A stretch of 64,000 nt of DNA, taken from positions 1 through 64,000 of the forward strand of contig MU831845.1 in the NCBI GenBank assembly GCA_029204225.1. Direction: 5' to 3'. The notes beneath the pieces are model-generated. The model ran no database searches. It saw only the letters and a program-made list of their open reading frames with translations, and was not told where the DNA came from. Each line of letters opens with the position of its first letter. Within the stretch, counting starts at the first letter, position 1. The stretch comes from Diphasiastrum complanatum (lineage: Eukaryota; Streptophyta; Lycopodiopsida; Lycopodiales; Lycopodiaceae). Below are positions 2,907-62,700 of the stretch, piece by piece. The position numbers and the translations under genes were made by a program.

Positions 2907-5900
2907 ATGTCTTCAATGGTTTCATCCTTGTTGGAACCAAGTGAAAGATTGACCACTTCAAATTATTCAATTTGGAAAATGAGGATGGAGTCCATCTTGA
3001 TCCTTCAAGACGTGATGGACATAGTTCTTGGCCTTGAAGAAGAACCACAAGTTCTTCAAGAGGTTCAAAAATACAAAAAGAGAGCTAGGATGGCTCTCCA
3101 CTACATTAAGATGAATGTCTCTAATGAGATATGAGGGAGATAGGTACTTGTACAACAGCCAAAGAAGCTTGGGATTGTCTCAAGACTATCTATGAGGCTA
3201 AGAATACCTCTAGGCTTCTCACTCTTAGGAATCAAATCTTTCAAAGTAGCCAAAAGAGTGATGAGAGTGCATCTAGTTATGTTTGAGAGTAAAAGATATT
3301 CATAGAGAGGTTGTTTGCATTGGTGATTCCATCAATCAAAATGAGCTAGTTCAAGTCATTCTCAATGGCTTGAGAAGTGAATTTGATAACCTTGTCCAAT
3401 CCTATGCCATTAAGGAGGAGCTACCAAGTTTGGAGGCTCTCCAAAGTGTGCTAATTTCAGAAGAATCAAGACAAGAGTACAAGCTCTTGAGGATGGACAA
3501 GCTTTCTCTCACTCATAATGATGGCAAAGCTCTCTTTTCAAGGATAAGCACAAAGGGAGGAGCAAGAACCAACATCAACAATCCTCAAGCAAGGACAAAG
3601 TCAAATCCAAAGACAAAGATGAGGAGGAAGATGATTTCTCTAATGCTTCATCATCCAAGCTCAAGAAGAAGAAGATCAAGTGCTTTTATTGTGGCAAGAA
3701 AGGTCATTATGCCACCAATTGCTTCAAAAAGAAGAATCAACTCAAGCAAGCCAATATTACCAATGAGAAGGAAGACATTATTGCAAGTGATGGAGAGGGA
3801 TCTCTTATGGTCCTCTAGTTTCTCATCTACTCCTTTCAAGAAGAACGCCTATGGTATATTGATTAGTGGAGCCTCTTCACATATGTGTAGCTCCAAGGAC
3901 TCTTTTTCTTCTATTGCACCTTATGATGGAGTGAAGAAATCAATATACACTGCAAATGATTTTGAATGTCCTATTGAAGGCATAGGGAACATTCCCTTGA
4001 AGCTTGCATCCTCTAAAGTTCTTTCTCTCTCTAGAGTTCTTTATGTACCTAAGCTTACCAAGAATCTTATCAGTGTTGGCCAATTGCTTGATAATGGCCT
4101 TGATGTAAAATTCAATGTTGATACTTGCACTATCAAGAAGAATGATGAGATACTTGCATTAGGATCTAGATTTGGTGGCATCTATAAACTAGATCCAAAT
4201 GAGTATGTGAATGCTTGTAATGTTGCTCTTGTGAACAAGCTCTCTATGGAGGAATTATGGCATAGGAGGTTGGGACATCCCAACTACAAATCCATGCTCT
4301 CTATGATCAAAGAATCCAAAGCTATTGGCTTGCCAAAGTCATTCTCCAAGAAGATCAAGCCTTGTGAGGCTTGTGCTATTGCTAAATCTCACAAAAAGCC
4401 ATTTACAAGATCTTCTATCAAAAGCAAGCATCCTTTGGAGTTAATCCACTCGGATGTGCATTTCTCATCAACTACAAGCAAGGGAGGAGCCACTTGTTTT
4501 GTTACTTTCATTGATGATTACACAAGATTCACTTGGATATATCTTCTTGCTTCAAAATCTATGGTGTTTGATCATTTCCTTATTTTCAAAGCTTATGTAG
4601 AGAAGCAATTCTCATTCAAGATTAAAGCTCTTAGAAGTGATGGAGGTGGTGAATATGTCTCCAATAAATTTCAAGATTTTTGTGAGCTTGACGGCATTAA
4701 AAGAGAGTTTTCTTGTGCCTACTCTCCATCTCAAAATGGAGTGGCCGAGAGAAAGAATAGATCTCTATGTGAATGTGCAAAATCTATGAGAATTGAGGCA
4801 TCTTTGCCCAAAGATTTTTGGGGAGAAGCTATTAATTGTGCAAATTATCTTTGCAATAGGCTCCCACATATAGCTCTTGGAGGAAAGTCACCATATGAAA
4901 TCTTATTTTTGAAGAAGCCTAAGGTTGATCACCTTAGAGTTTTTGGATGCTTATGCTTTGTCCATATTCCCTTGGAAACAAGGAAGAAGGAAGATCCTAG
5001 TGCATGCAAAGGGATCATGGTTGGATACTCATCCACCAAGAAGGCCTATAGAGTCTTTATACTCTCTACTTCTCAAGTTATTGAAAGTAGAGATGTTGTC
5101 TTTCATGAAGATCAACACTCATCATTTGAAGAGGCCAAGATCAAGAAATCTATGGATGCATCATCAATTATTGATTTTGAAGACAATCATGATGTGATGG
5201 GGTCGAGATTTGAAGAAGACTCTCCTCGGATTTTTTCACCAAGAAGATCCATGAGAGACAGATCCGAGCCTAAGAGGCTCTCATATGTTGACAAAGGCAA
5301 ACAAGTGGATCTTGATTCCACTAATTATGTTTTTTATGTCTCTCATGAAGAGCCAAAGAATGTACAAGAGGCACTCAATACCAAGGAGTGGTATGATGCC
5401 ATGAAGCAAGAGTATGATGCATTGATCACCAACAATACTTGGGAGCTTGTGGATCCTCCATCCAACAAGCATGTGATTGGTTGCAAGTGGGTATTTCGGA
5501 TCAAGTTCAATCATGATGGCACCATCAACAAGCATAAAGCAAGATTATGTGCCAAAGGATTTGCTCAAATCCATGGTCTTGATTATGAGGAGACCTTTGC
5601 ACCAGTTGCAAAGATGGTGATAATAAGAATTCTTATTTCTCTTGCTTGTTTTTTCAAGTGGAAGGTGTTCCAATTAGATGTATCCAATGCCTAAATTGTT
5701 ATCTTGAGGAGGAGATCTATATTGAACAACCTCAAGGATTCATCAAGGATGAGTCCAAAGTGTGCTTGCTCTTCAAAAGTCTTTATGGACTCAAGCAAGC
5801 ACCAAGATCATGGTATTCAAGACTTAACTCTTTTCTTATCTCACTAGGATTTACTCTTAGTGACTATGATCCTTCCATGTATCTAAAGTTTGTTGATAGC

Positions 5901-6887
5901 AATATTGTCATTCTTCTAATTTATGTTGATGACATTATTCTTTGTGGAAGTTGTATCAAGTTAGTTGATGAAACCAAGCTAGCACTTGGATGTGAGTTTA
6001 AAATGCAAGATCTAGGAGAGATACATTACATCTTAGGCCTAGAAATTGATTTTTATGAAAATCATGTCTTTTTATGCCAATCTAGATATGCTCACTCTAT
6101 GTTGAAAAAATTTCATATGAAAAATTCTAAGAGCATAGATACTCCAATGGAGCAAATTGTAAAAGATCCTAATAAAGGTGATGAAATATCCTTTGAGGAC
6201 ATCACACTTTTTAGGAGTCTTGTAGGCTCCTTGATTTGGCTTACCATTACTAGGCCTGATCTTAGTTTTTGTGTGCACAAATTGAGTCAATTTATGCAAG
6301 ATCCTAAGATCCATCATTGGAAGATGGCCAAGAGGATTCTAAGATATGTATCTTCATCTTGTGATTATGGTCTACTCTATAAAAGTGAAGATCTATCCAT
6401 TATTGGCTACTCGGATTCGGACTTTGCAAGTGACAAGATGGATCAAAAGTCTATTAGTGCATACACTATCTTTCTTGGAGGCAATCTAATATCTTGGCTT
6501 TCCAAAAAGCAAGATACTATATCTCTCTCTTCATGTGAGGTCGAGTACAAAGCACTCACTACAACTACCAAAGAATTGCTTTGGATCAAGAGGTTATTAA
6601 TGGAACTAAAGTGCATCAAGGAGGATGATCTACCAATGATCAAGTGTGATAACATCTCGGCCCAAGCTCTTGCCAATAATCCCATATTTCATGCAAGAAG
6701 CAAGCACATAGAAGTGGCACACCATTTTGTGAGAGAAAAGCTTATTGGAGGAGAAATCTATTTGGAGCATGTCAACTCGTCCTCTTGTATTGCCAATCTA
6801 CTCACCAAGCCTTTGAGCAAAAGTGCTTTCATCAAGCATAGATCTAATCTTGGAGTTTTATCAAGATCAATGCTCAAATCTTCATAG
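2907..6887 (+). pseudogene. Copia family 1 gag-pol, frameshifted
   Basis: Gag starts at 2907 (SERLTTSNYSIWKMRMES, the copia gag N-terminus). Single-base losses near 3131 and 3283 break it. A long frame runs 3283-5694. The zinc knuckle (CX2CX4HX4C near 3680-3725) is not read in that frame: one shift near 3540 is undone near 3811, so the stretch between is translated out of register. The protease motif reads ISGASSHM and so lacks the catalytic Asp. The integrase core is well kept (HSDVH, FIDDYTRF, QNGVAERKN). A shift and stop at 5692 split the reverse transcriptase; the second frame (5646-6887) carries YVDDIILCGS and RNase H (SDSDFAS...ARSKHIEVAHHFV). The whole corresponds to a polyprotein of about 1,300 residues. 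Confidence 0.92.
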
Positions 6888-24243: not shown

Positions 24244-24310
24244 GGATTAATGGACCATCCTGCACCCGAAACAGTTGACAAACTACACAGTAATTATGCT
24301 TTGTATTTTT

Positions 24311-24370
24311 CAGAAACGCATTTTTGAACCGCGTTTCTGAACACGATTTTGAAACGCGTTTCAGAAACGC
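24311..24370. repeat. Short inverted-repeat cluster with GAAACGCGTTTC
   Basis: The words CAGAAACGC, GCGTTTCTG, GAAACGCGTTTC and CAGAAACGC occur in alternating orientation within 60 bp, giving several possible hairpins. It lies near where CACTA-like sequence ends and the DUF7869-like gene region begins, so it may mark a transposon end; this is inference. Confidence 0.55.
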
Positions 24371-24689
24371 AGTGCATCTATGCTACAGACATAGCATGTG
24401 ATAAGATGAAAAAGAAGCCACATTGTACCATAAAGCACCGTGCAAACCAGCAATGAAACTGGAAATGAGCTCATCTTGGTGTATATCCGAAAAAAGATAG
24501 AGAGCTCAAGAAAATAGGCTAAATATGTGTTGTAAGCTCATTGAAGAACACTTCAATGTGTTGTAAGCTCCTAAAAACATCACTCTATGGTACATGCCAT
24601 TGAAAAGAAGCCCATTGGGTTATGTACAATGGTGATCGTCAAATTTGGATCATTTCGAACATTGGGATAATTAAAAAAGACCTTGGACT

Positions 24690-26327
24690 CTAAAGTGCCA
24701 TTAAACACAAGTGCTCGAGATGAACCTGAATAAAATCTGCCTCATTCAAATTTTTGGGCACTCTGACAAAATGAGGCAACATTGTTTTCTTCTGATCCAT
24801 GCCATCAATAGCAAGGCCCAAATATTTTTGTGGACATTCCAAACATTTTTGTCGATGCTTGGCCAACTTTTGTCTTTCAACTGTTTGTTGATCTCTGTGC
24901 AGTTGAAGAGCTTTGGCAGCATCCACTGAAAATACAATGATTCACTTATTTAATAGAATAAGAATCATACCATAATGATATTAAAAAAGATTGCAACTTA
25001 ATTTTTTTCAAAACAGAAAGTATTAAAATGAATGACAAATTTGATTAATATTTACCTTTCTCATCATTTGGTCTTTGCAAGTTGTTTTGCAGACTTTAAC
25101 AACTCGCAAGTGGAGCATATTGTCATTCGTGATTTTTTGGAAATCTTTACCAGTCCAAGCTTTCTTTTCCAGATTCTAAGAAAATATGAGTAACTCAAAT
25201 AGGAAATATTATTTGTTTTGGCAAATTCTTTGTACATAAAAAATATTTCTAATTTTGTAAAATTATCCGGCAAGTAAAGATATAAGAAATTAGGCAATTT
25301 CTCTCCATGCACATCTATGAAATGCTTTAGAGAAACAGTTCGCTCTGTAAGGATCCCCGTAATGTTGGGTCTTTATGAAGTTGTGCATGTATTCGTTGAA
25401 GCCGTGAGTTTTCGATTGCGTGAACTGCTTTGTAAGCTTTGCGACACACCTCCAAAGCATTAAAAAAAAATACAAAAATGAGTTTTAGTCTAGCCTCACT
25501 GTTGCACACAAATAGTTATTTCTCTCATCCTTACTTCATAAAAATAAATTTGATCTTAATTTTTCAATTTCTTTGATACTCAACTTTTGCAAACAACAAA
25601 ATGAGCAGCATATAATATTCTATACTTTTCGAATCTCAGATTTTGTAGTCAACTGTTTTTGACGATTCATTAAATCAAGTGAGGATCTCAAGTCTCTCTT
25701 GTATTTTTCTTTTTGTTTGGAGTTTGATCTATAAATTGAACTTGTGACACTAGTAGGTGTTTGAATTGGTTGAGAAAGTGTTAGAATTTCATGACTCGAA
25801 ATTTTGGCTCCAACCTCAGGATGTTCTGGAAGCTGAAAAGGCTCTAAATCCAACGAATATAGCCCAAGTTAGATTTAAAACGATGAACATCACTTTGAGA
25901 AGGTCTCCTATGAATATGAGAAAAGCTTGAACGTTGTGGATCAACAGACTTACGTGGATCTGTTGATTTACTAGAATCAGTAATTGAGTGAATTGAAGCT
26001 TTTGACTCATCACTCAATGATTCAACTTGTTCAAAAGAACAATGTTCTAATTGTGCAGAGCCTATACTTGAAGAGGAGGACAAGGTCATAAGATTTGACA
26101 CAAGTTGAGTTACAAGCGTCATTTCTTGAAAAGTACTTGCTTGAGGAATTTCAGAAGATGAACGGGTAAATGATGATGATGCCACATCATTTATAAAAAC
26201 ATGTTGAGAATCAGGAGTGGCTTTATAAAAAAAAGCTTTCATTGGAAATATCAGATGAAGATGATGCACTTGTTGCAATATATTGAGTTACAACTACTGA
26301 AATAGAAGAGGTAGAACTACTTGACAT
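24690..26327 (-). pseudogene. DUF7869-like transposase-type gene, decayed
   Basis: Read on the minus strand from an ATG at 26327. A serine/threonine-rich N-terminus (MSSSSTSSISVVV) is shifted at an eight-T run near 26230 and again near 25853. Conserved blocks follow: ALEVCRKAYKAVHAIENSRL (about 25455-25400), KLPNFLYLYLPDN with YFLRIWKRKLGLVKI and a CSTCELLKSA cysteine pair (25312-25064), and KYLGLAIDGMDQKKTMLPHF (about 24820). The IDGMDQ-K-T-LPH block with the preceding Cys pair recalls eukaryotic DUF7869 proteins, thought to be DDE transposase relatives. Probable introns lie at about 25627-25513 and 25050-24930. The ending past 24690 is lost. It is divergent from the methyltransferase-like gene at 27567. 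The family name is from memory. Confidence 0.55.
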
Positions 26328-26360
26328 CGTAACCTTAAACAAAAATTCTAACTATGTACT

Positions 26361-27165
26361 TATGCTAAGCATAGACCTGTTAAAATAGTTAACACATAAA
26401 ACTAAATGTGCTCCACAAACTTAACTGCAACCTATGCTGGTCATAGAACAAATAAAAATCTATGTGAACCTCAATAGACGTAAACAAGAAAAACAACTAA
26501 ATGCAAATGAGCAACAAGCCTAGAAAGTAATTGGTTAGTTGAAATTTCCAGTGGCTACCATGCCAAGCATAACTCACCTCATCTGCGAATTCAGAAGCAC
26601 ACATGCTGCCAAAGCTCTCGCTACAACAAAGTCACAGATTTCTATAGTATATTGCATACGTTCTCGCTCACACATTTCTTGATGGTAAGATTATTGTCAT
26701 TTTTTAACTTTGTTCTATGCTTAGCATGGATACTAAATTATTGCATTACTAAATATTCAGGTTTTAGCTAGTGTTCAAATTCTTCAAACTTGGGTGACTT
26801 ATGCTCAGCATAGGTGGTTGCACGAGTCCTCTCCACTAACCTATGTTGAGCATAGATTGTGTTCGGGTCCTAAGTAACAACCTATGATCAACATAGGAAG
26901 CCGGCGAGATGTTTCTATTCTAACCACGTTTCGACCTATGCTGAGCATAGGTTGCATCTCTGGTCCTCTTCCCACCTATGCTCAGCATAGGATGTCTTTG
27001 CATGCTGCTTGCTAACCTATGCTTAGCATAGGTTAGAAGAGGACTAGAGATGCAACCTATGCTCAACATAGGTCGATAGGTGATAAGAATAGAAAGATCA
27101 TGTTGACATCCTATGCTGAGCATAGGTTGTTACTCAGGACCCGGACACAACCCATGCTCAACACA
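26361..27165. repeat. Array of palindromes with core TATGCT-N-AGCATA
   Basis: Full or one-to-two-mismatch copies of ACCTATGCT-N-AGCATAGGT occur near 26361, 26432, 26714, 26800, 26841, 26882, 26936, 26977, 27015, 27056, 27110 and 27151. Further copies lie near 27766, 28882, 29457, 29506 and 29590 inside the methyltransferase-like gene, mostly in introns. Around 26841-27151 spacing is often about 38-41 bp. Each unit is nearly self-complementary. No copies were noticed elsewhere in the window. The cluster occupies the gap between two divergent genes. Confidence 0.88.
26850..27153. repeat. About 300-bp inverted repeat at centre of palindrome array
   Basis: The left arm, about 26850-26972, runs ...CGGGTCCT.AGTAACAACCTATG...TTTCTATTCT...CGACCTATGCTGAGCATAGGTTGCATCTCT.GTCCTCTTC. 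The right arm, about 27032-27153, carries the complement in reverse order: GAAGAGGACTAGAGATGCAACC...AGAATAGAAA...GTTGTTACTCAGGACCCG. The spacer of roughly 60 bp holds two more palindromes. Confidence 0.8.
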
Positions 27166-27566
27166 GGTCGTTACTCGTATTTTGCCCGTTTTACAAGGCT
27201 TTGTCTAAGAAAAGTGAAACCTTTGAGTGTTTTAGTAAGAAAATGTGTTGAATTTTTAGTTATGATTTTTAGAGATTTTTTACAAAAACTACTTGTCTAT
27301 TTAAAGTTTTCGGTATTTTCATTAAGGTGATGTTTTAAATTTTCCTAAAAAATCTTTTCTGCAGATTCTCAATTGTCTAATCTTTGAAATGTCGAGGATT
27401 TTTTTTTAAATTTTGGGTAAACTTCAAGATATTCCACTGAAAGATAAAAAAAAATTCATGTACTACTTCACCAGAGGGGTCAACAACACAAAGCTATTTG
27501 AGCTTTAGCTAAGAAGCCTGGCAGGGGAGACTCACAATTTTGAATTCAAGGAAGATTGCTTGCTGA

Positions 27567-30500
27567 TCAACCAGATGAGGATGAGGAAGAAGGTCTTGTG
27601 AACGTGCTTGTAAAGGAGACGGATAAGTCTCGTTCTATTTTCATTCTGAACGAGACTATGATAAAGATTCGACTTTGCCAGGACAGCCTATTTTGATAAA
27701 GCTCTAGTTACTTTGGTGTGTAATTATAAAACAGATTTTTATTCATGTATGTTTACATTTGTTCCATGCTTAGCATAGTGGCTACTAAATATAAAATTCT
27801 ATGAACTTTTAAGTAAAAGCCTTTACTCATTATATTTAAAACTTGTTTTTTTGTTTCTGTCTAGGGCATGAAGCAATGCTTAAAAATGGTTCTAGCTGCT
27901 ATTATTGAGGGGAAAGATCCAGTCTACTCATTACGGAGTTCAAAAGGTGTATCTATTGGACCTCATAAGCCTGCTTCTGCCACTACTCAGATCACAAAGC
28001 CAGTCTCTGAAAATGTTGAGGATGATACTGTAGCTGTCCCTCATCCCAAAAAAAAAGATCTCATAATATTTCTGAGTCCTCTCTCACTAGACCCAAGTCA
28101 CGTCCAAAGACCATGGCTACACATTGCCAAAAGTCCATTCCATCTGTTGAAAGCAAGAAAGCCACGACCAAACCGTTGATGTCTTTACTTGGTGCCTCCA
28201 TCCGTCCCTTACAAGATAGCTCTGAACTTGCTAAATTAAGAGAAGATTTTCATAAAGCAAAAAAATTAAAGAAACAACTTTGATTTTAGATATGAATCAG
28301 TGTGATAGGCCATCTGTAGACCCAATAATAGGAGATAGGCCAATGGAAGTAACAGAACCATATGAAACACATGTACATAACTTAAAAATAAAATTTAAAG
28401 ATCATATATAAGCCATAGTTACTCCTTTTGTTGTTTTGGTTGATCCCAACGAATGTAACAATGTTGCATATTTTGATTTTTCTTTATTAGATTCATATCA
28501 TTTTTTGGTTCTTGGGGACATACACAGTTTACAAGCCCGAAAACAGTTATCTCAAGAGTATCCCCATATTCCATCCTTTCGAATTGTGAGTGCAATTGCA
28601 TTTGCTGGCCTGACAGTGGAAGAATCCAAATTATTGGCTTGGGAATATAACATTGATTAAGATTATCGGATGAAAATGACCGTCATACAAAGAATCCGAT
28701 TCTTTCACAAAGAATACACGGGAGTATCCAAAGCAGGAGATGTGAATCAACTAGAGCTGAAAGCACTTTGTGCTCAAGAGACAGGCCTACCTTTTTATTT
28801 GAAAAATCCTACGCAGAGCCTTACAAAATATGATAATTTTTTTCAGCTTGCTTTTCGTAGTGGCTAGGTAATTTTTTTTGGCTATGCTCGTCATGGAATT
28901 CTCTGGTCATAATATATGCTATAATTCTTTTAAATTATTTTTATCAGACTAAAATTTTGAACTCAATTTTAATACTACCTAAATACCTTATCAAATAATT
29001 TTTTTTTGTTTTATTTTAGGTGTGGGCCCTTGTTGATAAAATTTTTGACAAATGAAAAACTTTTCAAATAAAAGGCCAACCTGCTCAAGGTGTCTCAAAG
29101 TCAAAGAAAAAAGTTGTCAGCACTCAAACTCTGAAGCCAATCCCTACAGAAATGAGAATATCAGAGTGGAAGAACATGCAAGGGATTAGTTCTTCAAAGC
29201 TTATAATAAGTGTTCTTTCTAGAGTTGCCGATGGTCAACTTTCTTTGGCAGAAATGGAGAAGAATTTCAAAGGTAATAATCATAATCTTAATATTTATTT
29301 ATATGTTACTTTTTGTAATAAAGTTCCAAAAACCCTTGTGACAGGGTTAAATTATCAAGATTTCGAAGAGTGCCAAAGGCCTTATCCTTTGAACAGCCGA
29401 AATGAATCTTTGAGTCCATTTCTGGTTTTGTTTAGAGACATGGTATTTATTTCACCCATGCTTAGCATAGGTGCTTATTAATTGTTTTTTTTTTTCTATT
29501 TTATATCTCCTATGCTAAGCATAGCTTTTTCTTTATTTAATTATTTTTTTTGATACTTTAAATCTCCTATTCTATCTTGTATTTTATGTCTCACATGCTA
29601 AGCATAGCTTTTTCTTTTTCAGTCTCCTGAAGATAAGAAAAACAAAGTCCTTCCAAAGCAATTCAAGAGACATATTCTGAAGGCAAAAGCAGAAAAAAGA
29701 GACAAGGAGAGATTAGCACGGGGTGAGACCATTGCCGAAGAGGATCCATTAGAGACCTACCTTCCCAAAAGTGTCGATGATCAACCATGTTTAGTGGACG
29801 ATTGTAGAGAAATTTCAAAATTTTAAAAAAAAAAGGCCTTATACACTCTGCATTGCCAATATACCATATGGATTTCAGATGAAGGAATCATTAAATGGCG
29901 ATTTCTCCTTCAAATTCACTGAAATCCATAGTTTCATGCAGGGTTTTCTCGAAATCACAACTTTTCCATTTTGGAGAGTTGTTATTTTTCATTATTCTAA
30001 TTGGCAGTCAACTTCAGTACAAAAAGCTCTACTAACTTTTTATAATGCGAGAATAGAAAATACTGTGTGGTAAGTTTTTAAGTTCTTGAATTATTAATTC
30101 GTATTTTAATTCATAATTATATTTTAAATTTTTTTATTTTAAAGTTAAATTTTTTTATTTATTTTACTTGTAATGTTCCATGTCAGGTACAAGCTCAATG
30201 TCAGGAATTCGGAAGGAGCACGACTTTGCAATGAAATAGAATACATAACCATCGGTTATTATTCTTTGGATGACAAACGCTCAATGCTTCATTACAATAC
30301 TTCCGGACTAACAAGCTTTGGAAACTTGTTCCAGTATCTAGCCGTGACCAAAAAACTAAAGAATTCAATGACGGGTTCCATGGTTTGTCTTTACCAAAAG
30401 CCACAACAATTAATTAATCATTTAATTGATATTTTTCTCACCCAGCTGATTGGATTTTGGATTTATTTAGTGGTAGCAGCACTACGAATGCATGTGCTGT

Positions 30501-30837
30501 TCAAAAGGGTAGACATGTTGCTGCAGTAGATTTAGATTCTAATTTAGTTGATTTTGTGAAAATGAGAATGAAATCTCTTTCAGTTTTGTCAGATAAACTA
30601 TCTGAGGTGAGAAAGAGTTTAGATAGCGAGGATTCAGTAATTTCATTGTCCAAAGAACCTCAGCCTCCTACTAGCGGTAAAGTAGGCGATATAGGAGAAT
30701 TTGCTAATGTCTTGGTTCAAGATTATAATGTGGTTACGGTAGTCGAGAAAATTGTAGAAGAGGTGCCACTTGAAGCTACAGTGGCTACTCAAGAAAAAGA
30801 AAAAAATGTAAATGACCTCGATGATTTTTTAGAATAA
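27567..30837 (+). pseudogene. Spliced gene with ParB-like domain and N4/N6-type DNA methyltransferase domain, decayed
   Basis: Probable exons: 27567-27715, 27865-28867, 29020-29272, 29324-29442, 29623-30069, 30187-30837, with GT-AG junctions. The junction 30069/30187 restores a Trp codon and the reading frame. Domain order: acidic N-terminus; Ser/Lys-rich linker and short coiled coil; a ParB-like segment near 28490-28740 (HFLVLGDIHSLQARKQL, then GLTVEESKLLAWEYNID); a helical region; methyltransferase motif IV near 29855 (IANIPYGFQ, for the usual [DN]PPY); a GARLCNEIEYITIGYYS strand region; YQKPQQLINHLI; then motif I near 30455 (DWILDLFSGSSTT) with GRHVAAVDLD. IV before I is the beta-class order, as in bacterial ParB-methylase fusions. 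Decay: shifts near 28050, 29825 and 30430, and stops near 28283, 28408 and 28658. NIPY and FSGSS each lack an expected residue. Function is inferred: DNA base methylation. Confidence 0.62.
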
Positions 30838-31545
30838 AAATTTCTCTTTTAATATTAAATCAATCAAAAAAAATTGCGTTTATATTTTTTAATGTATTGT
30901 GTTTTGAGATCTTTTTGATTGATTTAATATTCTTAAATTTGTTTTTTAATGATTTAAAATTAAGAATTCGAAATATTTTAAAAATTTTAACATTGATAAT
31001 CATTACCAAAACTAAAATTGTAACGATTTGTCAAGTTTATAATATTTTAATTTTGAATGTGTTTTTATAATATTTTTTGTAGAAAAAACTATTGTTAGAA
31101 ATTTAAAAAAATGAAAAGATTTTTTTCAAGGTGATTTAAATATTTACACAAATTATTTAATCTCGATTATTGTAAAGTAATTTCATTTGCGTTTATTTAA
31201 TGTTTAAATATTCAACGAACTTACATAGGTATAAGTAAAGATTTTAAAAAATTTTAAAACTTTTAAAATACTTATTAAAAATTTTATCATAATTTAAAAA
31301 GTATTTTTTTATACAAGAGTTGTAATTTAAAAAACTTTTAAAATTTAAAAAAATATATATATAACTTTTGCTCTAAATAAGCAAAAAATATTTTTTTTTT
31401 ATTTTAGTGTTTGGGTATCTAATGATTTTATTTTGAATAGTATTATTATCTCATATAAGCTAATTTTAAGTTATTTATGAAAATCTATTGACCAAATTTT
31501 TGTAGTTTGAATTATTTTATTGTAAAATACAACATTTTTTTAATA
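30838..31545. other. Very AT-rich DNA, no gene
   Basis: Extremely AT-rich, with many TTTTAAAA and AAATTT words and short inverted repeats. No coding signal. It separates the methyltransferase-like gene from CACTA transposase sequence and would contain the right end of any transposon carrying the former, but no terminal repeat could be picked out. Confidence 0.5.
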
Positions 31546-32060
31546 TTACAATATATTTATTTGAAGCATTTTAAATCTGGATACTTTAAAAAAAAAATGG
31601 GTCTCCATGTCATTTCTATTTTTTTTGGTCATCATGTTTTTTATGAATCGTTCGAAGAAAAACATCCAACGACCATGGACAATGCTTGAAATAAAAATAC
31701 GAATAGTCCACTTAGCTTGTTGTCCCTTGTGAAGGCACCTTTTAGGCATCGCATGTGTCCTGTCGGAGTTTGAAATGAGGCTATTGCCTTCTTTATAATA
31801 GTCTCTTCTCTCCTCGAGAAGATCCATGGAGCCTTTGTGAGGACAATTGAATTCCCCACCATTTGTGGCCATAAATCGGCCATCTTTTCTACTTCTTTTA
31901 AGTCATCTCGTACATCTTTTTTATCTTTCAACCTGGTCAAGTGCTCCCAAATCGTGCTCCCGACATTCTTGAATAAAGTGCATCGGGTCCAAAAAATGGT
32001 TTATCAACAATTCTCCCAATACGGAAGTTCACGAAATATTGATAACCTCTTCATACCAAG
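31546..32060 (-). pseudogene. CACTA (En/Spm) TNP2-like transposase, central remnant
   Basis: On the minus strand the order of TNP2 blocks is kept: ELPYWEN near 32040; a LDPMH block and FKNVGSTIWEHL (the counterpart of the LDVMHIEKNV region, with a shift between); DLWPQMVGNSIVLTKAPW; RCLKGAFTRDNKLSGL near 31710; then a deleted stretch and RWMFFFERFIKNMMTKKN near 31660-31610, the counterpart of the W-x-x-PFER-x-x-x-x-L-K region. Frames 31940-31641 and 31872-31546 alternate, showing frameshifts. It is transposase of a CACTA DNA transposon, dead here. Part of the same strand's C-terminus may be 23570-24243. Confidence 0.65.
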
Positions 32061-32874: not shown

Positions 32875-33437
32875 ATAACAAAAGATGATTGGTATCTCTG
32901 AAAAATCCAGAAAGTGAAGATCCTTGATCATCCTCTGATCCATACCATCTCCTTTGTGCAATGTGTAAGAGCTTTGTACTCGGCCTCACTAGATGGCAAT
33001 GAGATAGTGGCTTGTTTCTTCGACATCCATGATATAGCTCCATCACCTATGAAAATACAATGAGCACTAATGAATTTCCTATCCATTACATCTCCATCAT
33101 AGTCTGAATCTGAAAATCCAAAAAGATTAGGTGATGATCCCTCATACAATTTGCCAAAATCTTGAGTTCCAATGATGTACCTCAAAACTCGTTTTCCTAG
33201 CTTCCAATGCTCCTCACTAGGATCTTGCATGAATTGACTCAATCTTCCAGCACAATAGCTTAGATTCCATCTAGTAATGGTTAGATAGATGAGTGAACCA
33301 ACTAGCTTCCTATAGAGAGTAATGTCCTTGAAGGATCCTTCATTACCTCTTATAGTTAGCTTTACATGAGACTCCATAGGTATATCACTAGCTTTTGTAT
33401 CTACCATATGAAATCTTTCTAGAAAAGAATTAGCATA
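32875..33437 (-). pseudogene. Copia (family 3) RNase H fragment
   Basis: Minus frame 33407-32928 reads GSLIYLTITRWNLSYCAGRLSQFMQDP and GFSDSDYDGDVMDRK, up to SSEAEYKALTHCTKEMVWIRG. This is the same RNase H type as in the element at 49698-53550. The fragment begins just after the RT (YANSFLERFHM at about 33437) and ends near 32875 before the ARSKHIE block. Both ends are breaks, not LTRs. Confidence 0.85.
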
Positions 33438-34873
33438 TTTCTAATTAAGAATGGTTTTATTCCAAACTCAACAGATTTGAATGTTTATTTCAAGTCTGTA
33501 TTGAATTTTTTCATTATCATCACTATTTATGTAGATGAATCATTACTATTCAATAACAATCTGATGAAGGATATGAAATACATGCTAGCATAAGAGTACA
33601 AAATGACTGATATGGGTCTACAACCCATTACTCTCTCAGGATTTATATGTTTCAAATTCGATCTTATAGATAAATTTTCATCATTCAACAATGATATTTC
33701 ACCAACGTGCTAGATAGATGTGGAATGACCAACTGCAAATTGAGTCACTTTCCACTCGACCTTGGAATGAAGCTGTCAAAGGAACAATCTCCTCAAATAG
33801 AGGGAAGAAATGAAGCAATAAGTCAGAATCTCAACGAATCCAATCACATAAGAGGATCAAAGTTCATCCCAGAAGATCGAACCGATCCAGACATTCTAAA
33901 TCTTGATTTATAAATGATCCAGCTTGTTACTTTGTGTAGAAAACAAACACAATTTTTGAAGCAATGTCAACTTTTGATGTTGACCAGTGGAAAGCTACAA
34001 TAGACACATAATCCAATTCTCTGATAGAGAATCAAATGTGGACACCAAAATCCGATTCTATGCAAATGGTTATTCAAATCAAAGTATGATGCTGAAGGAA
34101 GTTTAAATCGATACAAGGCCAGACTAGTCACCAAAGGCTTCTCCCAGATTCTAGATCTGAATTATTCTAAGACCTTTAGTCTTGTTGTCAAACATGCTTC
34201 AATTCGATTACTTCTTCCATATGCAACTGCAACAGACTCAAAGTCCACCAAATGGATGTCCATATTGCTTTTCTCAACGAGACTATCAAAGAGAAAATAT
34301 ATATGTCACAGCTAGAGGGATATGAACTGAAGGGTAAGGAGCACCTAGTGTGTAAAATTCACAAGGCTTTGTATGGTCAGAAATAGTCACCAAGAGCTTG
34401 GTTTTAGAAAATTAATACATTTCTAATTAAGAATGGTTTTATTCCAAACTCGACAGACTCGAATGTTTATTTCAAGTCTGTATCGAATTTTTTCATCAGC
34501 ATCACTCTTTATGTAGATGATACATTACTATCCAATAACAATCTGAATTTGATGAAGGATATGAAATTCATGCTAGCAAAGGAGTACAAAATGACTGATA
34601 TGAATCGACAACCCATTACTCTCTTGGAATTTATATTTTTCAAATTCAATCCAATAGACAAATTTTCATTATTCAACAATGATATTTCATCAACATGCTG
34701 GACAGATGTGGAATGACCAAATACAAATCAAGTTACTTTCCACTTGACCTTGGACTAAAGCTGTCAAAGGAACAATCTCCTCAAATAGAGACAAAAAAGG
34801 AAGAAATGAAGCAATATTCATTTCACTCCATCATCGGCTCACTGATGTATACAATGGTCTGCACTCGACCCGA
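33438..34873 (+). pseudogene. Rearranged copia reverse transcriptase fragments with internal duplication
   Basis: The segment at about 33438-33816 (RT palm with VDES in place of YVDD, then MLDRCGMT and PLDLGMKLSKEQSP) recurs at about 34412-34803 (LYVDDTLLSNN, MLDRCGMT, PLDLGLKLSKEQSP). Between the copies lies the normally upstream RT entry (YKARLVTKGFSQ near 34115, ALYGQ near 34370). So either two copies of one family are joined head to tail, or one copy carries a duplicated RT end. Multiple stops make it non-functional. It ends at CTRPDLAMH where the repeat at 34874 begins. Confidence 0.75.
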
Positions 34874-48525: not shown

Positions 48526-49697
48526 TGGTATCAGAGCTGGTTGGCTTCTATTTACAGTAAGTATTCCATTTTTGGTGATATTTGGATGTTTGATCAAGTT
48601 CTAGCATGATTTTGCATTGCTTTGTTGATCAAATCTTACTAACCTTTGTTTTGTGAGTTGAACTTGTGGATCAAAAGCATATTTCAGGTCTATTGAAGAT
48701 CAGAGGCTGAAAAGAAACTATTTTGGATCAGATCATAACACCTAATCATTTGTGATTGTGAGGCTTGTGCATATTCAATACTAACAATGTTCTTTTCAAT
48801 CCTATTGTTGACAATCTCCATTCTTGGATGAACACTCTCCTTAAGTGGATGAAACTTCTCCTTAAGTGGATGACAAATGCTCTTTTGAGTGAGTTGTAAT
48901 TCTCCTAAAGGCTGAGCAAAGCTCCCATTTGGATGAAAGATCCCCTTTTTTGGGTGAACATATTGTAAGCTCCATTGTGAAGAGCATATTGTAAAGATTG
49001 TCATCAATTTTGGCATAAATTTTGGTGTACTTTGTTGAGCATGTAAGTAACTCTCCTTATGTAATTTGATTGGAGCATTTGCTGGAAGGTGTTAACCATT
49101 ATGCAAGTGTGTTTTCAGGTTCTTAACAGGTTGAGGAACATTCTCATGTGAAGTGATCTTAGATCTACATCTAAACACCAAGATTTGACAAGATAGTGAA
49201 GCTAGTCTTGTGATTCACTAAGTGTGCTCATTCATTCACCTCTAAATCTTGTATTTATCACTTGCTGGAGTTTATAAACTTTTAGAAGTGTGGTTTACAT
49301 GTGGTTTTACAGGTTGAATCAATATCTTAGTGTGTTGATCATATGTTGATCAAGTTTGTTCATTACTAGGTAATCTTGGCATCCTAGTTTTGGGTATTTT
49401 CTAAGAATGCAAGTAACTCTTCACACCATAACTTGATTTGGTCACTTGCTGGAAAGTTTGAGAGCTTAAGCAAGAGTGTGTTCAGGTTGGTTTGATTTTG
49501 TAATCCATTCTTAGTGTGTGCAAAGTGTTGCATGTGTTTCAATCTTCCTTTCTATGCTTGGAAACCATCTAGGTTCAAGATAGAAGTGTTTTAGGGTCCT
49601 AAATCTTCATAGATCTCTTTATCTATCATTTGTTGAGAGAAAAGTGAGTGCTAAGTGCTTTAGGACAGAACCTAAAAGTTGAAGAAACATTAGAATC
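48526..49697 (+). other. Primer site and leader of copia family 3
   Basis: TGGTATCAGAGCTGG at 48526 begins a 1.17-kb untranslated leader. It contains imperfect tandem units around CTCCTTAAGTGGATGA (48836-48872) and repeated phrases such as CACTTGCTGGA (for example 49261, 49447). The minus-strand open frame at 48690-49016 is produced by these repeats. Confidence 0.8.
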
Positions 49698-52600
49698 ATG
49701 GCTTCCAATGGTGGGATCATGCTAGAGTCTAGTGAAAGGTTGAGTTCATCAAACTACTCTACTTGGAAAGTGAGGATGGAGTCCTTACTTGAGTTGAATG
49801 AACTCATGGACATAGTTGCAGAAATTGAAGAGAGACCTCTCACACTTCAAGAGCAACAAAGGTTTGATAAGAAGGCCAAAAGGGCTCTTCATATCATTAA
49901 AATGAATGTTACAAATGAACTTCTCAAGGAAGTTGGAAAGTGTCAAAGTGCAAGTGAGGCATGGAATGCCTTAAAGAAGCTCTTTGAATCAAAGTCCACA
50001 TCTAGGGTATTGACCCTAAGGAGACAAATATTTTCTAGTAGGCAAAGAGAGGGTGAAAGTGCTCATGCATTTATCTTGAGATTTAAGTCCCTAAGTGATG
50101 ATTTAGCATGCATTGATGAGAACATAAAAGATGGTGAAATAGTCCAAGTTATGTTGAATGGTTTGCTAAATGAACATGCTAACCTTGTGCAAAGTTTTGC
50201 CATTCAAAGAGTCTTGCCAAGTGTGGTTGACTTGCAAGAAATCTTATTGGCTGAAGAACATAGGTTGCAATCAAAGCTTGATGGTGCATCCTTGCAAGGT
50301 GGAGGTGAAGAGGCTTTCTTCACAAAAGGCAAATTCAAGGGCAAAGGTAAAGGCAAAGGGAAATGGTCCAAAGGTGGTAACTTTGATCATGATGATCACT
50401 CTTCCTCTTCCTCTTCTACTAAGAACAATAAGTCAAAGTTCAAGTGCTTTTATTGTGGGATAAAAGGTCATTTTGCAAATGAATGTTATAAGAAGAAAAG
50501 AGAGCAAGGAGAGAGGCAAGGAAATCTTACAATAGATGAGGAAGAACATAACACATGTGAATCACTTGTTATGACTTCAAGTTTGTTAGCCAACATAGAT
50601 GATAATGATCCTTGGTGGATTGATAGTGGAGCCTCATCTCACATGACAAGACATAAGGAATACTTTACATCCTTATTGTCTTATGAGGGAGAAGGTAACA
50701 TCATCTACACTGCAAATGATGGTCAATGTGACATCAAAGGCATAGGCACTATTCCTATTTCCCTTTCAACAAATAGGAAAGCAAATCTTGAAAATGTTTT
50801 GTACATTCCTTCAATCACTAAGAATTTGCTTAGTGTAAGTCAAATGATTGACAAAGGACTTGATGTGGAGTTCATTGGAGATGCATGTTTGATAAGTAAA
50901 TGTGGATCCTTGATTGCTCAAGGTAGGAGGCATGGTAAACTTTTCAAGCTTGATGCATGTGTGATCTCTAATCATGAAGGATGTATGGCTAGGGAGCAAT
51001 TGACAAACCAAGAAGTTTGGCACAAGAGGTTGGGCCATCCCAACTTCAAATCTTTGGAGGTAATGGCAAAGAAAGAGCTTGTTCTTGGTCTCCCTAAAAG
51101 TCTTGTTGCAAACAATAGTGTTTGTGAACATTGTGCCTTGTCCAAATCTCATAGACTTGCTTATTCTAGATCTACTTCTAGATCTAAAGAAGCTTTTCAA
51201 CTTGTACATTCTGATATTCATTCTTCTAGTACAACTAGCAATGGTGGGGCAAAGATGTATGCAACTTTCATTGATGACTTTAGTAGGTATACTTGGATCT
51301 ATCTTCTTAAAAGTAAGGATGAAGTGTTTGCTGCATTTGTCAAGTTCAAGAATGAAATGGAAAACCAATTCAATACAAAGATCAAATGCTTAAGATCTGA
51401 TAATGGAGGGGAATACACCTCAAATAGGTTCAAAGACTTTTGTATAGCACATGGGATTAAGAGGGAGATGTCTAGTCCTAGGACTCCACAACAGAATGGA
51501 GTGGCCGAGAGGAAGAATAGAACCCTTTGTGAATGTGCCAAGGCAATGAGACTACATGCTAATCTTGCTAAGTCTTTTTGGGGGGAAGCTTTAGCATGTG
51601 CTAACTATCTATGTAATAGATGGACAAGTGCTTCCTTGGATGGTAAAACTCCTCATGAGGTTCTTTATGGTAGAAGGCCGAGTGTCAAGCATTGTAGGAT
51701 CTTTGGATGTACATGTTTTGTCAATATCACACTTGATGATAGAACTAAAGAAGATCCTTCATCAAAGAAGGGTGTGTTTGTTGGCTATAGTGAAGTAAGC
51801 AAGGCTTACAAAGTGTACATTCCTTCTACAAAGAAAGTTGTCATAAGTAGGGATGTCATCTTTCATGAAGAGAATGTTTCCAATGTTGTTGATGTTGATG
51901 TTGATGTGCCTACTAATCATCATGATGTGCAAGATGTCTTGGATGAAGATGGAGATGCCACTCCAAAGCAAACTTCAAGGAAGACTCAAAGGCAAAGGGC
52001 TAAGCCATCAAGGCTAACCTATGATGAAAAAGGAAAGCAAGTGGTGGACAACTCTAACTTTGCTTTTCTTACCTCTTTTGATGAACCAACTTGTGTAGGT
52101 GAAGCAATTCAAAAGAAGGAATGGATCCAAGCCATGGATCATGAGCATCAAGCACTCATCAAAAGCAACACATGGAGGTTGGTAAAGCTTCCAAAGGACA
52201 AGAAGGCAATTGGTTGTAAGTGGATCTTCAAGATCAAGACAAATCAAGATGGATCAATCAACAAGTACAAGGCAAGGTTGGTGGCAAAGGGGTATGCTCA
52301 AGAATATGGTATTGACTATGATGAGACCTTTGCACCCGTGGCAAAGATGGTAACTATTCGAATCCTAATCTCTCTTGCAACTCTTTATGATTGGGATATG
52401 TGGCAAATGGATGTTACTAATGCCTTCTTGAATGGTGATCTTGAAGAAGATATTTACATGGAGCAACCCGAGGGCTATGTTTCACATGATGAGCCTAATC
52501 ATGTGTGCTATCTCCAAAAGAGTTTGTATGGGCTAAAGCAAGCACCAAGGAGTTGGTATGCTAAGCTCAATTCCTTCTTACTTTCTCAAAACTTTGTTAT

Positions 52601-53550
52601 GAGTGAGTATGATCATTCTCTCTACTTTAGATTGAATGAAAATGATATCACTTTACTTTTGATCTATGTTGATGACATTATCTTAAGTGGTGGTAACAAT
52701 CTAGATATAGATGAAATCAAGATGGCACTCAAAAGAGAGTTTGAAATTCAAGATCTTGGTAAACTTCATTATATCTTAGGAATAGAGATTATTAGAACTT
52801 CTAAATCTACATTCATATGTCAAGAAAAGTATGTTAACTCTATTCTAAAAAGGTTTCATATGGAAGATTGTAAAGTTGTTTCTACTCCTATGGAATCAAA
52901 TGTAAAGCTAACTACAAGAAGTAATGAAAGATCCTTCAAGGACATTACTCTCTATAGAAAGCTAATAGGATCTCTTATATGGTTAACCATCACAAGACCT
53001 GATCTAAGCTTTGTGGTTGGTAAGTCAATTTATGCAAGATCCTAGTGAGGCTCATTGGAAGCTAGGAAAGAGAGTACTTAGATACATCTCGGGATCTAGA
53101 GATTTTGGCATCTTGTATGGAGGTACTACACCTAACCTTTGTGGATTTTCAGATTCAGATTTTGCAGGTGATCAAATGGATAGGAAGTCAACAAGTGCCT
53201 TTGCAATCTATCTTGGAGATGGAGTGGTCTCATGGCTATCAAAGAAGCAACCAACTATCTCTCTATCTTCCACCGAAGCCGAGTACAAGGCATTAACAAC
53301 ATGCACCAAGGAGATTCTTTGGATCAAGAGGATGTTATTGGATCTTCACTTGCTGGAACCAGAGAAGACTCCAATCATACTTTGTGATAACCTTTCAGCC
53401 CAAAGCTTGGCAAGCAATCCTGTTTTTCATGCAAGGAGCAAGCACATTGAGATTGCTCACCATTTTGTGAGAGATCAAGTCATTGCCAAAGAGGTGGAGC
53501 TTCAACATGTCTCTTCAAAGGAGTGTGTGGCTGAAAGGACCTATATTTAA
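49698..53550 (+). pseudogene. Copia family 3 gag-pol, nearly intact
   Basis: One frame of 1,115 codons (49698-53045). Gag (SERLSSSNYSTWKVRMESLL); zinc knuckle CFYCGIKGHFANEC near residue 250; protease WWIDSGASSHM near 305; GAG-pre-integrase VWHKRLGHPNF near 440; integrase VHSDIH, FIDDFSRYTW and QNGVAERKNRTL (about 500-600); RT with YVDDIILSGG near 990. A small deletion near 53024 throws RNase H out of frame; it continues at 53011-53550 (GFSDSDFAGDQMDRKST, ARSKHIEIAHHFVRD). A second deletion near 53530 removes the TKPL tail. All catalytic residues checked in the first frame are present, so only late damage keeps it from being intact. Confidence 0.93.
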
Positions 53551-59275: not shown

Positions 59276-59763
59276 TGTTACAAGCAAGATCTTTCAACAA
59301 AACATAAGACTAAGCATCATAAATGCCTCTACTCAGCTAGAGAGAGAAAATAACAAGTACAAAACTCGTGGAGAGAGAGAGGGCACAAAGAGCTTGTCTC
59401 CAAATTTGCATTACACACAAATTTCATCATCTTCTCAATGAGAGTACATCACATATATATAGATCCATGGACTCTTCTCCTACTTTGAGTTGAATTGGAG
59501 TTGTGGATCCACCTCTCAAGCTATCTAGACTTATTCAAGCCACCTCACTATGTCTAATTGTGCCACCTAGTCTTTTCATGCATTAAAGGTGGCATGTAAA
59601 GTACAAATGGCAATTCCTATGGTAGCTCGAGTTTCTACTTCTACCTACCTTGAATATTTTATTCTAAGATGGGTCTTTACTAAGCCAAAAGAGCTCAATT
59701 CATCTTTGACATTTTTAGGACCCATACACACAACATTAGATAGATTTTTCAATAATTTTGACA
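59276..59763 (-). repeat. 3' LTR of minus-strand copia (outer end uncertain)
   Basis: On the minus strand the sequence after the polypurine-like TTTTTAGGAG begins TGTCAAAATTATTGAAAAATC, matching the first 50 bp of the LTR at 6906 with changes (GGGTCCTA for GGGTCTTA). Farther in, similarity fades, so this is a diverged subfamily. The outer end is placed only roughly and could lie anywhere from about 59020 to 59280. Confidence 0.5.
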
Positions 59764-62700
59764 CTCCTAAAAATGTATCTAATGTGGATCAAGCATTGAT
59801 CTTGAGATAAGACCAAGATTAGACCTACGCTTTGAAAAGGCACTTTTACAAAGTGGCTTTGTGAGAAGATCGCAATACACAAAGATGTGTCGACATATTC
59901 TAAGTTGATTTCACCTCCAATGAGCTTTTCCCTTACAAAATGGTGTGCCACTTCTATATGCTTGCTTCTTGCATGAAAAATAGGATTGTTTGCAAGAGCT
60001 TGTGTCGATATGTTGTCACATTTGATCAAGGGAAGATCATTCTCTTTGATGCACTTTAGCTCCATGATTAACCTCTTGATCCAAAGCACCTCTTTAGTTG
60101 TTGTAGTGAGTGCTTTGTACTCGGCCACACAAGATGATAGATATATGGTATCTTGCTTCTTTGAAAACCAAGACACAAGATTGCCTCCAAGAAAGATAGT
60201 ATATGCATTAATGGACTTCCGATCCATTTTATCGCTTGCAAAATCAGACTCTGAATAGCCAACAATGGTTAGATTTTCTCAACATAGAAAAGACATATCT
60301 AGATTGACAAATAAAAGCATACTCTTCATGAAAATCAATCTCAAGGCCCAAAATGTAATGGATCTCTCCTAGATTTTGCATTTTAAATTCTTTTCCTAAT
60401 GCATCTTTGGTTTCTTGAACTAGCATCAAACAACTTCCACTAAGAATAATGTCATCTACATAGATTAGGAGACTGACAATATTATTACCATCAAACTTTA
60501 AGTACATAGAAGGATCATAGTCACTAAGCACAAATCCTAATGAAAGTAGAAAGTTGTTGAGTCTTGAATACCATGATCTAGGTGCTTGCTTTAAGCCATA
60601 AAGACTTCTAAATAGCAAACACACCTTAGATTTATCCTTGATAAATCCTTGAGGTTGTTCCATGTATATCTCCTCCTCAAGATAGCCATTCAAAAAAGCG
60701 TTGGAGACATCAAGTTGAAACAGTTTCCACTTAAAAAAATAAGGCAAGAGAGATTATGATTCTTATTGTCACTCTTTGTTACAGGAGCAAAGGTTTCTTC
60801 ATAGTCAAGGCCATATATTTGTGCAAAGCCTTTAGCACATAATCTTGCCTTGTACTTGTTGATGGAGCCATCATGATTGTACTTGATCTTGAACACCCAC
60901 TTGCATCCAATGATATGCATGTAAGGTGGTGGATCCACTAGCTCCCATGTGTGGTTGGTGATCAAGGCATCATATTCAATCTTCATGGCCTCATACCACT
61001 CCTTGGTATTGAGGGCTTCTTGAACATCTTTGGGCTCCTCATGAGAAACAAAATAAGCATAAGTGGAATCAAGGTCCACTTGTTTTCCTTTGTCATCATA
61101 AGTGAGACTCTTGGGCTCGGATATCTCCCTCATGGATCTTCTAGGAGTGAAAATCCGAGGACTTCCATCTTCAAATCTTGACTCCTCCATATGTTGATTG
61201 TCTTCAATAACAATAGGTGATAGATTTTGAGGTTGCTTGATCTTGGCCCCTCCAAGATTGGACTTTTCTTCTTCATGAAAATCTACATCTCTACTATCAA
61301 TTACTTTAGAGATAGAGAGCTTGTAGATTCAATAGGCTTTCTGTTGGATGAATATCCAACCATTACTCCTTTGCTTGCACAAGGATCATCCTTCTTTCTC
61401 GTTTCCAAGGGAATATGGACAAAGCATATGCATCCAAATACTCTAAGGTGTTCAACCTTAGGTTTCTTCAAATAGAGTGCTTCATATGGTGACTTTCCTC
61501 CAAGTGCAACATGAGGGAGTCTATTGCAAAGATAGTTTGAACAATTGATAGCCTCACCCCAAAAGTCTTTTGCCAAGGATGCCTCAATTCTAATGGTTTG
61601 GCACATTTACACATTGTCCTATTCTTTCTTTCAGCCACCCCATTTTGAGATGGTGTATATGCACAAGAAAACTCTCTTTTAATGCCTTCAAGCTCACAAT
61701 AATCATGAAATTTATTGGAAGCATAGACTTTGAAGCTAGAAGATATACCCAGGTAAATCTAGTGAGATCATCAATGAAAGTTACAAAGCAAGTAGCACCA
61801 CCCTTGCTCTTTGATCCAAGTGTATGAGCTCCAATGGATGTGTAGTCTTGATAGATGACTTTGAAAAAGGCTTCTTATGAGACTTAGATATGGCACAAGA
61901 CTCACATGGCTTGAAATTCTTGGAGATAAGATTAGGCAAGCCAATAGCTTTGGCTTTCTTGACCGTGGACACCATAGAATTATAGTTAGGATGTCCCAAC
62001 CTTCTATGCCATTGTTCCTCCAAAGACATATGAGTAGCAAAAGCACTATCACAAGAGTTAGCATACTCTTTGGGATCAAGCTTGTAGATTCCACCATATC
62101 TAGACCCAAATGCAAGGATCTCATCATGCTTCTTGATTGTACATGTATCAACATTGAAATTCACATCTAGTCCACTATCAAACAATTGCCCAACACTAAT
62201 AATATTTTCTGTTAACTTGGGAACAAAAAGTACATTAGACAGAGAAAGAACTTCTGATGAAGAAAGCTTTAAGGGAATGGTCCCTATGCCTTCAATAGCA
62301 CACTCATGATCATTTGCTGTGTAGATGGACTTCTTGGCTCCTTCATAAGGTGACATGGATGAAAAAGAATACTTGGAGCTACATATATGTGAGGAAGCTC
62401 CACTGTCGATATACCACTAAGGTGATGAAGAAAAACTCGAGACCATAAGAGATCCCTCTCCATCACTTGCATGAGCATCTTCCTTCTCTTCATCAGATAT
62501 GTTGGCTTGCTTGAATTGACTCTTCTTTTTTAAGCAATTGGTGGCATAATGCCCCTTTTTGCCACAAAAGAAACACTTGATGTTTTTCTTCTTCTTCTTG
62601 GATGTGGAAGCTTGAGAGGACTCATCCTCTTCTCCTTTCTCCTTGGAAATAAGATTGTTCTTGCTTGAAGAGGATTGGTGTTGATTCTTACTTCTTGTCT

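Follow-up and report, generated by a model that had tools for sequence, protein, structure and literature searches.

The closest described counterpart of the gene studied here is found in the element Sola1-1_Ec32 of Ectocarpus, where, in the part of the published account available to us, a gene encoding a ParB-like region and an N4/N6 methyltransferase stands opposite the transposase gene (Dinatale et al. 2025, PMC12477816). That account suggests that such proteins may bind and mark their own element, and it cites similar proteins from green and red algal transposons (Iyer et al. 2011; Petroll et al. 2025, Bostrychia). In this study, we analyzed a stretch of 64,000 nucleotides from Diphasiastrum complanatum contig MU831845.1, referred to below as the window, which is positions 1-64000 of contig C327 (G000:C327:1-64000) in a genome of 1.74 Gb and 5176 contigs. 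It contains a broken multi-exon gene of a beta-class amino-methyltransferase at 27544-30837 on the plus strand, with the methyltransferase in the C-terminal half. Judged by its architecture, this gene looks to be of the same kind as the algal transposon genes combining a ParB-like region with a methyltransferase. The kind is already published from Ectocarpus and from the algal relatives cited there; what is new is a plant lineage with a high copy number and with persistent palindrome arrays. With a probability of roughly 60%, we read the window gene as a dead copy of an accessory gene of a Sola-like, cut-and-paste DNA transposon with a high copy number, the protein of which would read the palindrome arrays and methylate its own element.

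The methyltransferase gene in the window

The methyltransferase half was identified by profile search. The read-through of the gene matches PF01555 at E 9.9e-12 (45.7 bits against a curated cut-off of 26.7), the piece 30430-30837 alone reaches E 1.6e-5 (25.4 bits, slightly under the cut-off of 26.7), and copies elsewhere in the genome score up to 60.8 bits. Motif IV precedes motif I across the copies, with an IADIPYG-type motif in exon 4 and an LDLFSGSGTT-type motif in exon 5. A methyltransferase domain with this motif order had been proposed in a preliminary description made from the sequence, and it is borne out by the above-threshold match of the read-through and by the motif order in the copies. 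P0001, a public protein of 187 amino acids (aa) from one 1000-base contig, was the one relative found in the protein-database searches, which returned none for the full read-through or for the ParB-like exon. It is 66% identical to the window gene (E 6.8e-36), matches PF01555 at E 4.8e-15, and has its best PDB relatives in 6pbd (E 2.2e-7) and in 1nw8 and 1eg2 (both E 3.9e-7), that is, CcrM and RsrI.

The gene model joins the following open pieces, where the labels beginning with L denote related loci fetched from the genome.

27544 to 27719, plus strand: possible first coding exon (open piece, frame uncertain).
27865 to 28867, plus strand: exon 2, a linker followed by the ParB-like region at 28412-28867, broken by stops and frame changes.
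29020 to 29272, plus strand: exon 3, with matches in L077, L081, L083 and L088 among others.
29345 to 29442, plus strand: exon 3b, covered by tblastn matches in relatives.
29623 to 30069, plus strand: exon 4, a linker and methyltransferase motif IV (NIPYG), the reading frame changing at a run of A near 29826.
30187 to 30837, plus strand: exon 5, methyltransferase motif I (FSGSSTT), with a frame change near 30436.

The model contains four GT-AG introns (28868-29019, 29273-29344, 29443-29622 and 30070-30186), in agreement with the introns proposed earlier. The intron before exon 4 could be aligned for 12 of 13 sequences, and the AG at its acceptor is kept in 11 of the 12 aligned copies. The peptides quoted in the preliminary description were all found at their places: GDIHSLQARKQL...GLTVEESKLLAWEYN falls within the open piece 28412-28657 (ParB-like), NIPYGF (motif IV) within 29795-30073, and DWILDLFSGSSTT...GRHVAAVDLD (motif I) within 30430-30837. 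The gene start given there at 27567 is not upheld, the first exon being uncertain. The model lends that exon no weight, since it took a frame there different from that of the open piece.

The frameshifts noted earlier are present in the window copy, with frame changes at four places (near 28057, 28284-28292, 29826 and 30436), together with in-frame stops at 28409, 28658, 28865 and 29053. The window copy is dead. Motifs were compared among the loci fetched from the genome, 20 of ten kilobases and 8 shorter, which make 28 loci at 24 distinct places and are not a random sample because they were picked mainly for long open frames; overlapping loci were counted once. At 16 readable places, the window included, the first residue of motif IV is D in ten, N in four (the window among them) and Y in two, and exactly DIPYG stands in 8 of the 15 copies other than the window. 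The catalytic motif of the beta class is [DNS]PP[YFW], with DPPY as the standard, and the second residue of motif IV departs from it here. Motif I reads FSGSGTT in 18 of 24 other places and FSGSSTT in the window. Owing to this substitution and to the N at motif IV, the window copy looks catalytically damaged as well as frame-broken. With its stops, frame changes and substitutions in both motifs, it cannot itself perform the function proposed below.

Structure of the transposon

Both in the window and in six of the 20 ten-kilobase loci (L069, L073, L074, L075, L077 and L081), the methyltransferase gene has beside it a second gene on the opposite strand, and the two genes are arranged head-to-head. 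Single pieces of this transposase-like gene from L081 and L069 match PF25273 (DUF7869) at E 3.3e-20 and 2.6e-19, respectively; the domain was not matched in the piece that remains in the window, and the name DUF7869 was not found in the open-licence literature searched. The gene has what we take to be the look of a DDE transposase.

24620 to 31638, no strand: transposon remnant with the left end missing; DNA alignment to L073, L077, L081 and L069 begins at 24620.
24690 to 26327, minus strand: what remains of the divergent transposase-like gene, its N-terminal part, which is broken and has an inferred start codon (seen in the translation and by tblastn in L069, L073, L074, L075, L077 and L081).
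31628 to 31638, minus strand: right terminal inverted repeat with the terminus GTCATCATGTT (reverse complement AACATGATGAC), matching the left ends of L077, L081, L073 and L088.

The element is bounded by inverted ends of 11 bp. Left ends of the form AACAC(G/A)ATGAC were found in L077, L081, L073 and L088, right ends with the reverse complement AACATGATGAC in L077, L081, L079 and the window, and right-end variants of one or two bases in L080, L083 and L087. Two copies with both ends, L077 and L081, measure 8495 and 8794 bp, and both are flanked by target duplications of 4 bp (GTAG/GTAG and TTCC/TTCC, respectively), a length that we take to fit the Sola superfamily. The element may thus be called Sola-like by its 4-bp duplications. 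Alignment of the window to L077 and L081 stops at 31638 and 31640, and relative to L077 the window copy is without about 1.8 kb of the transposase-side end. Assignment to the KDZ transposons was also considered and dropped, as the relatives match DUF7869 and the ends give 4-bp duplications.

Palindrome arrays

A total of 15 copies of the palindrome CTATGCTNAGCATAG with at most two mismatches were found in the window, against 0.31 expected, and all of them lie within the element, between 26360 and 29607.

26360 to 27125, no strand: array of 11 copies of the palindrome CTATGCTNAGCATAG in the stretch that separates the two genes, many of them spaced by about 41 bp.
27764 to 27778, no strand: single palindrome in the first putative intron (motif scan allowing up to two mismatches).
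29456 to 29607, no strand: three palindromes in the intron before exon 4 (motif scan and intron alignment).

The spacings of the intergenic array in the window are 40-42, 54, 72, 84 and 283 bp, and 40-42 bp is the commonest palindrome spacing overall. Genome-wide, 4012 exact sites were counted, where about 7 are predicted from base composition at 37% GC and the reversed control gave none. Among eight intergenic stretches examined, seven contain 8 to 14 sites and that of L069 contains 3. When arrays were fetched by the motif alone, all three matched element DNA and two of the three also matched element proteins. Across 143 sites taken from 19 sequences, the four bases are about equally common at the center (A 33, C 36, G 38, T 36), the arms are 76-100% conserved, and the flanks prefer C at -1 (72%) and G at +15 (52%); the search itself had selected the arms, so that the values for the center and the flanks alone are free of bias. 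The arrays of L083 and L086 are made of the same site, and with the sites masked their intergenic DNA has no blastn match at E 1e-3 to that of the window type.

Some additional features of the arrays were noted. Part of the window array forms an imperfect inverted repeat of 153 nucleotides (26839-26991 and 27016-27168), 85% complementary and with 24 nucleotides between its arms. Some of the sites in L083 (3944-5053) and L086 (3938-5032) read TTATGCT...AGCATAA, possibly a drift of the site matched to the divergence of the protein. The inner GCTNAGC equals the BlpI/Bpu1102I restriction-site sequence, which we take as no more than a hint.

Selection on the two protein halves

Omega was calculated by a simple counting method in which stop codons were skipped. 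For the methyltransferase exon (9 sequences, 36 pairs), 29 pairs have a synonymous divergence (dS) above 0.7 and all of these give omega values of 0.09-0.25. The 7 close pairs give 0.25-0.74, higher values of the kind to be expected of copies that decay once they have inserted. The ParB-like exon gives 21 pairs from 7 sequences: five pairs with L083 have dS of 1.7-2.5 and omega of 0.07-0.11, ten close pairs have omega of 0.13-0.60, and in the six pairs with L061 saturation of dS leaves omega undefined. The low omega at high dS in both exons denotes that both halves of the protein were maintained; they evolved under purifying selection. In the subfamily of L083, synonymous sites are saturated and the intergenic DNA is unalignable, and the palindrome is still present.

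Copies in the genome and origin of the gene

At least 150 genome matches to the methyltransferase profile (PF01555) were scored, out of 1605 candidates. For the ParB-like exon the number is likewise at least 150, out of 2510 candidates and with the window's own included. Among the ParB-like matches listed, the best other copy is 99% identical (C3:78164359) and the rest are 70-87% identical. The search of the host genome for intact copies yielded many homologous copies and none, among those examined, that is intact in all exons. The 99% identical exon copy aligns between 28292-28864 of the window and G000:C3:78164359-78164931 and likewise has two TAA stops; this near-identity may mean that C327 represents another haplotype, or a duplicate, of that region of C3.

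The genome contains 98 matches to the NAC family (PF02365), which we take as a mark of plants and hence of a plant genome here. None was found in 14 control genomes, which says little because the named controls are prokaryotes (bacteria and archaea). The NAC matches agree with the earlier view of a mobile-element gene in a plant nuclear genome. The enzyme class is bacterial-type, and on this ground one might suspect bacterial or phage contamination, or unrelated open-frame fragments that resemble a gene. We give such an explanation practically no credence: the gene has GT-AG introns, its copies lie on many large contigs of a 1.74-Gb genome that also contains NAC genes, selection acted on both protein halves, and the explanation is already refuted by the finding of dispersed copies that have inverted ends and target duplications.

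The same preliminary description had proposed a bacterial or phage origin, which is plausible from the enzyme class, though a donor was not found. In tblastn searches of phages and plasmids with the read-through and P0001, the matches listed were all below 60% identity and mostly annotated as methyltransferase or hypothetical, and scans of viral contigs with the window proteins or P0001 found no relative. A direct phage or bacterial relative was rejected, since the phage, plasmid and viral-contig searches gave no close one.

Proposed function and alternatives

According to the reading that we prefer, the protein would recognise the palindrome arrays, most likely through its ParB-like region, and would write N6-methyladenine (6mA) or N4-methylcytosine (4mC), both on an exocyclic amine, on the element's own DNA. 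The mark would keep the divergent promoter active against cytosine-methylation silencing by the host, or would license the transposase. A more specific proposal, which is tentative and rather unlikely to hold in full, is a self-marking system in which a ParB-like reader, loaded on 15-bp palindromes that follow each other at about 41 bp in the promoter of the element itself, is coupled to the amino-methyltransferase. In such a system, 6mA or 4mC at the promoter arrays would keep the element expressed against host 5-methylcytosine silencing, and reader, writer and site would have evolved together as one unit, even between subfamilies that have reached saturation at synonymous sites.

The ParB-like character of the N-terminal half was suggested by the pattern FFVLGGIHSLQARKQL...LTVEEAKLLAWDHN, which resembles the GH-R-A and N motifs of ParB. 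An alignment by hhalign of the family profile with a phage ParB profile returned the expected register (GGIHSLQA...KQL ... N) unprompted. The ParB segment claimed earlier is thus suggested by a pattern and a register, and fails as a profile match: PF02195 matches neither the window nor three stop-free copies, so the profile search envisaged for it came out negative. The structure prediction that had been called for was run, and its two single-sequence AlphaFold models are unusable, with a predicted local distance difference test (pLDDT) score of 35.0 and 38.5.

Several results weigh against the preferred reading. Searches of Pfam (PF02195), PHROGs, NCBIfam and PDB gave no ParB match. A profile of ParB sequences from phages and viral contigs (16, left from 23 once near-duplicates were removed) is matched as well by 355 of 1000 shuffles as by the exon, and the hhalign profile-profile score is equalled by 9 of 100 column shuffles, so that ParB homology failed all statistical tests run. 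No palindrome site was found in 4 of the 28 fetched loci. Within the intron that precedes exon 4, conservation is 0.654 in the site columns and 0.616 in the others, a difference reached in 1688 of 10000 permutations and not significant. The ParB-like exon is free of stops in only 18 of the 150 scored matches, and both two-ended copies, L077 and L081, have stops in the methyltransferase gene.

The missing profile match and the shuffles that score as well would be accounted for if the N-terminal region were not derived from ParB, the protein being a methyltransferase with an unrelated, element-specific DNA-binding region. This is a plausible alternative, somewhat short of even odds, and it has to contend with the expected ParB register that hhalign gave unguided and with the same two-domain description published for the gene at the equivalent position of Sola1-1_Ec32 (in the available part of PMC12477816). 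The N-terminal half is therefore named "ParB-like" by its pattern and by the published twin architecture (PMC12477816), which are suggestive, and not as a shown homologue.

The reader of the palindromes may also be another protein. The DUF7869 transposase or a host factor would then bind them, and the methyltransferase would mark some other sequence, its linkage to the arrays reflecting shared ancestry only. In favor of another reader, the sites cluster between the divergent genes, where any regulator of the element might bind, and 6 of the 20 ten-kilobase loci have matches to the methyltransferase gene as well as to the transposase-like gene. In some DNA transposons, subterminal repeats are bound by the transposase. 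Here, all palindromes in both two-ended copies are internal, at least 2 kb from either terminus, unlike subterminal sites, which does not settle the matter, and three sites lie inside an intron of the methyltransferase gene. We regard this as the chief alternative, at somewhat less than an even chance.

A further alternative accepts that the enzyme was once active and holds that it served the mechanics of transposition, by marking newly replicated or donor DNA, instead of the evasion of silencing. Its beta-class relatives CcrM and RsrI are adenine methylases, and Dam marking in Tn10 transposition is a precedent. As every palindrome in the two two-ended copies lies at least 2 kb from their ends, such a role appears distinctly unlikely, though the target of the enzyme need not be the palindrome.

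Surroundings in the window

The window is a nest of transposons. Open frames of polyproteins that we take to be of Ty1/copia type occur on both strands at 3277-6887, 49683-53550 and 59736-63244, and some of them are almost uninterrupted, 49683-53045 being open for 1120 aa. Just outside the right end of the element, an open piece at 31641-32000 on the minus strand (DLWPQMVGNSIVLTKAPWIFSRREETIIKKAIASFQTPTGHMRCLKGAFTRDN) presumably resembles a protein of plant CACTA transposons. Near the broken left end of the element, at 24308-24371, lie tandem units (TTTCTGAAACGCG type) with lengths of about 13 and 25 bp, and a pair of direct repeats (33428-33819 and 34410-34807) is 87-91% identical and about 985 bp apart. 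Rfam at the gathering threshold and a tRNA scan gave no match in the whole window.

Comparison with known systems

In the open-licence literature, searched mostly by titles and the starts of abstracts and with most subscription papers outside it, neither a land-plant case nor a description of the site array was found, and among the papers listed PMC12477816 alone was found to show the architecture. Whether plants have enzyme-written 6mA or 4mC is an open question, and so is how transposons escape silencing by cytosine methylation. With its 150 or more matches to the element-borne methyltransferase gene and 4012 exact copies of the candidate site, this one genome gives claims of 6mA and 4mC on these elements a definite place to be examined.

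CcrM and RsrI, beta-class adenine methylases, are the closest solved structures to P0001 by sequence; they are bacterial enzymes, and the commonest form of motif IV in the plant element is DIPY, not DPPY. Fusions of ParB and methyltransferase are also found in phages and prophages. In the fusion of Wolbachia phage WO (L006 15675-16886) and its relatives, a ParB region (PF02195 at E 8.9e-5, just under the cut-off) precedes PF01555. These phage and prophage proteins are about 400 aa in one open frame, whereas the plant gene is multi-exon, and a profile of 19 such fusions matches the methyltransferase half of the plant gene only. The N4CMT of bdelloid rotifers is likewise an amino-methyltransferase of bacterial type that acts in a eukaryote, transposons included; in the part of its description available (PMC8885841), it is a host gene with a chromodomain fusion, thought to help silence transposons, and is not transposon-borne.

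Sola1-1_Ec32 and the plant element, likened by their descriptions, are both DNA transposons with a methyltransferase gene on the strand opposite to the transposase gene; the ParB-like region that is described for the algal gene is suggested by pattern in the plant one. Sola1-1_Ec32 is 21.5 kb long and comes from a brown alga, whereas the plant element measures 8.5 and 8.8 kb in its two complete copies. Section 5 of PMC12477816 makes no mention of a palindrome array, and the plant element has such arrays. The function proposed for the algal elements thereby gains a candidate recognition sequence, and the suggestion of self-marking becomes a testable mechanism.

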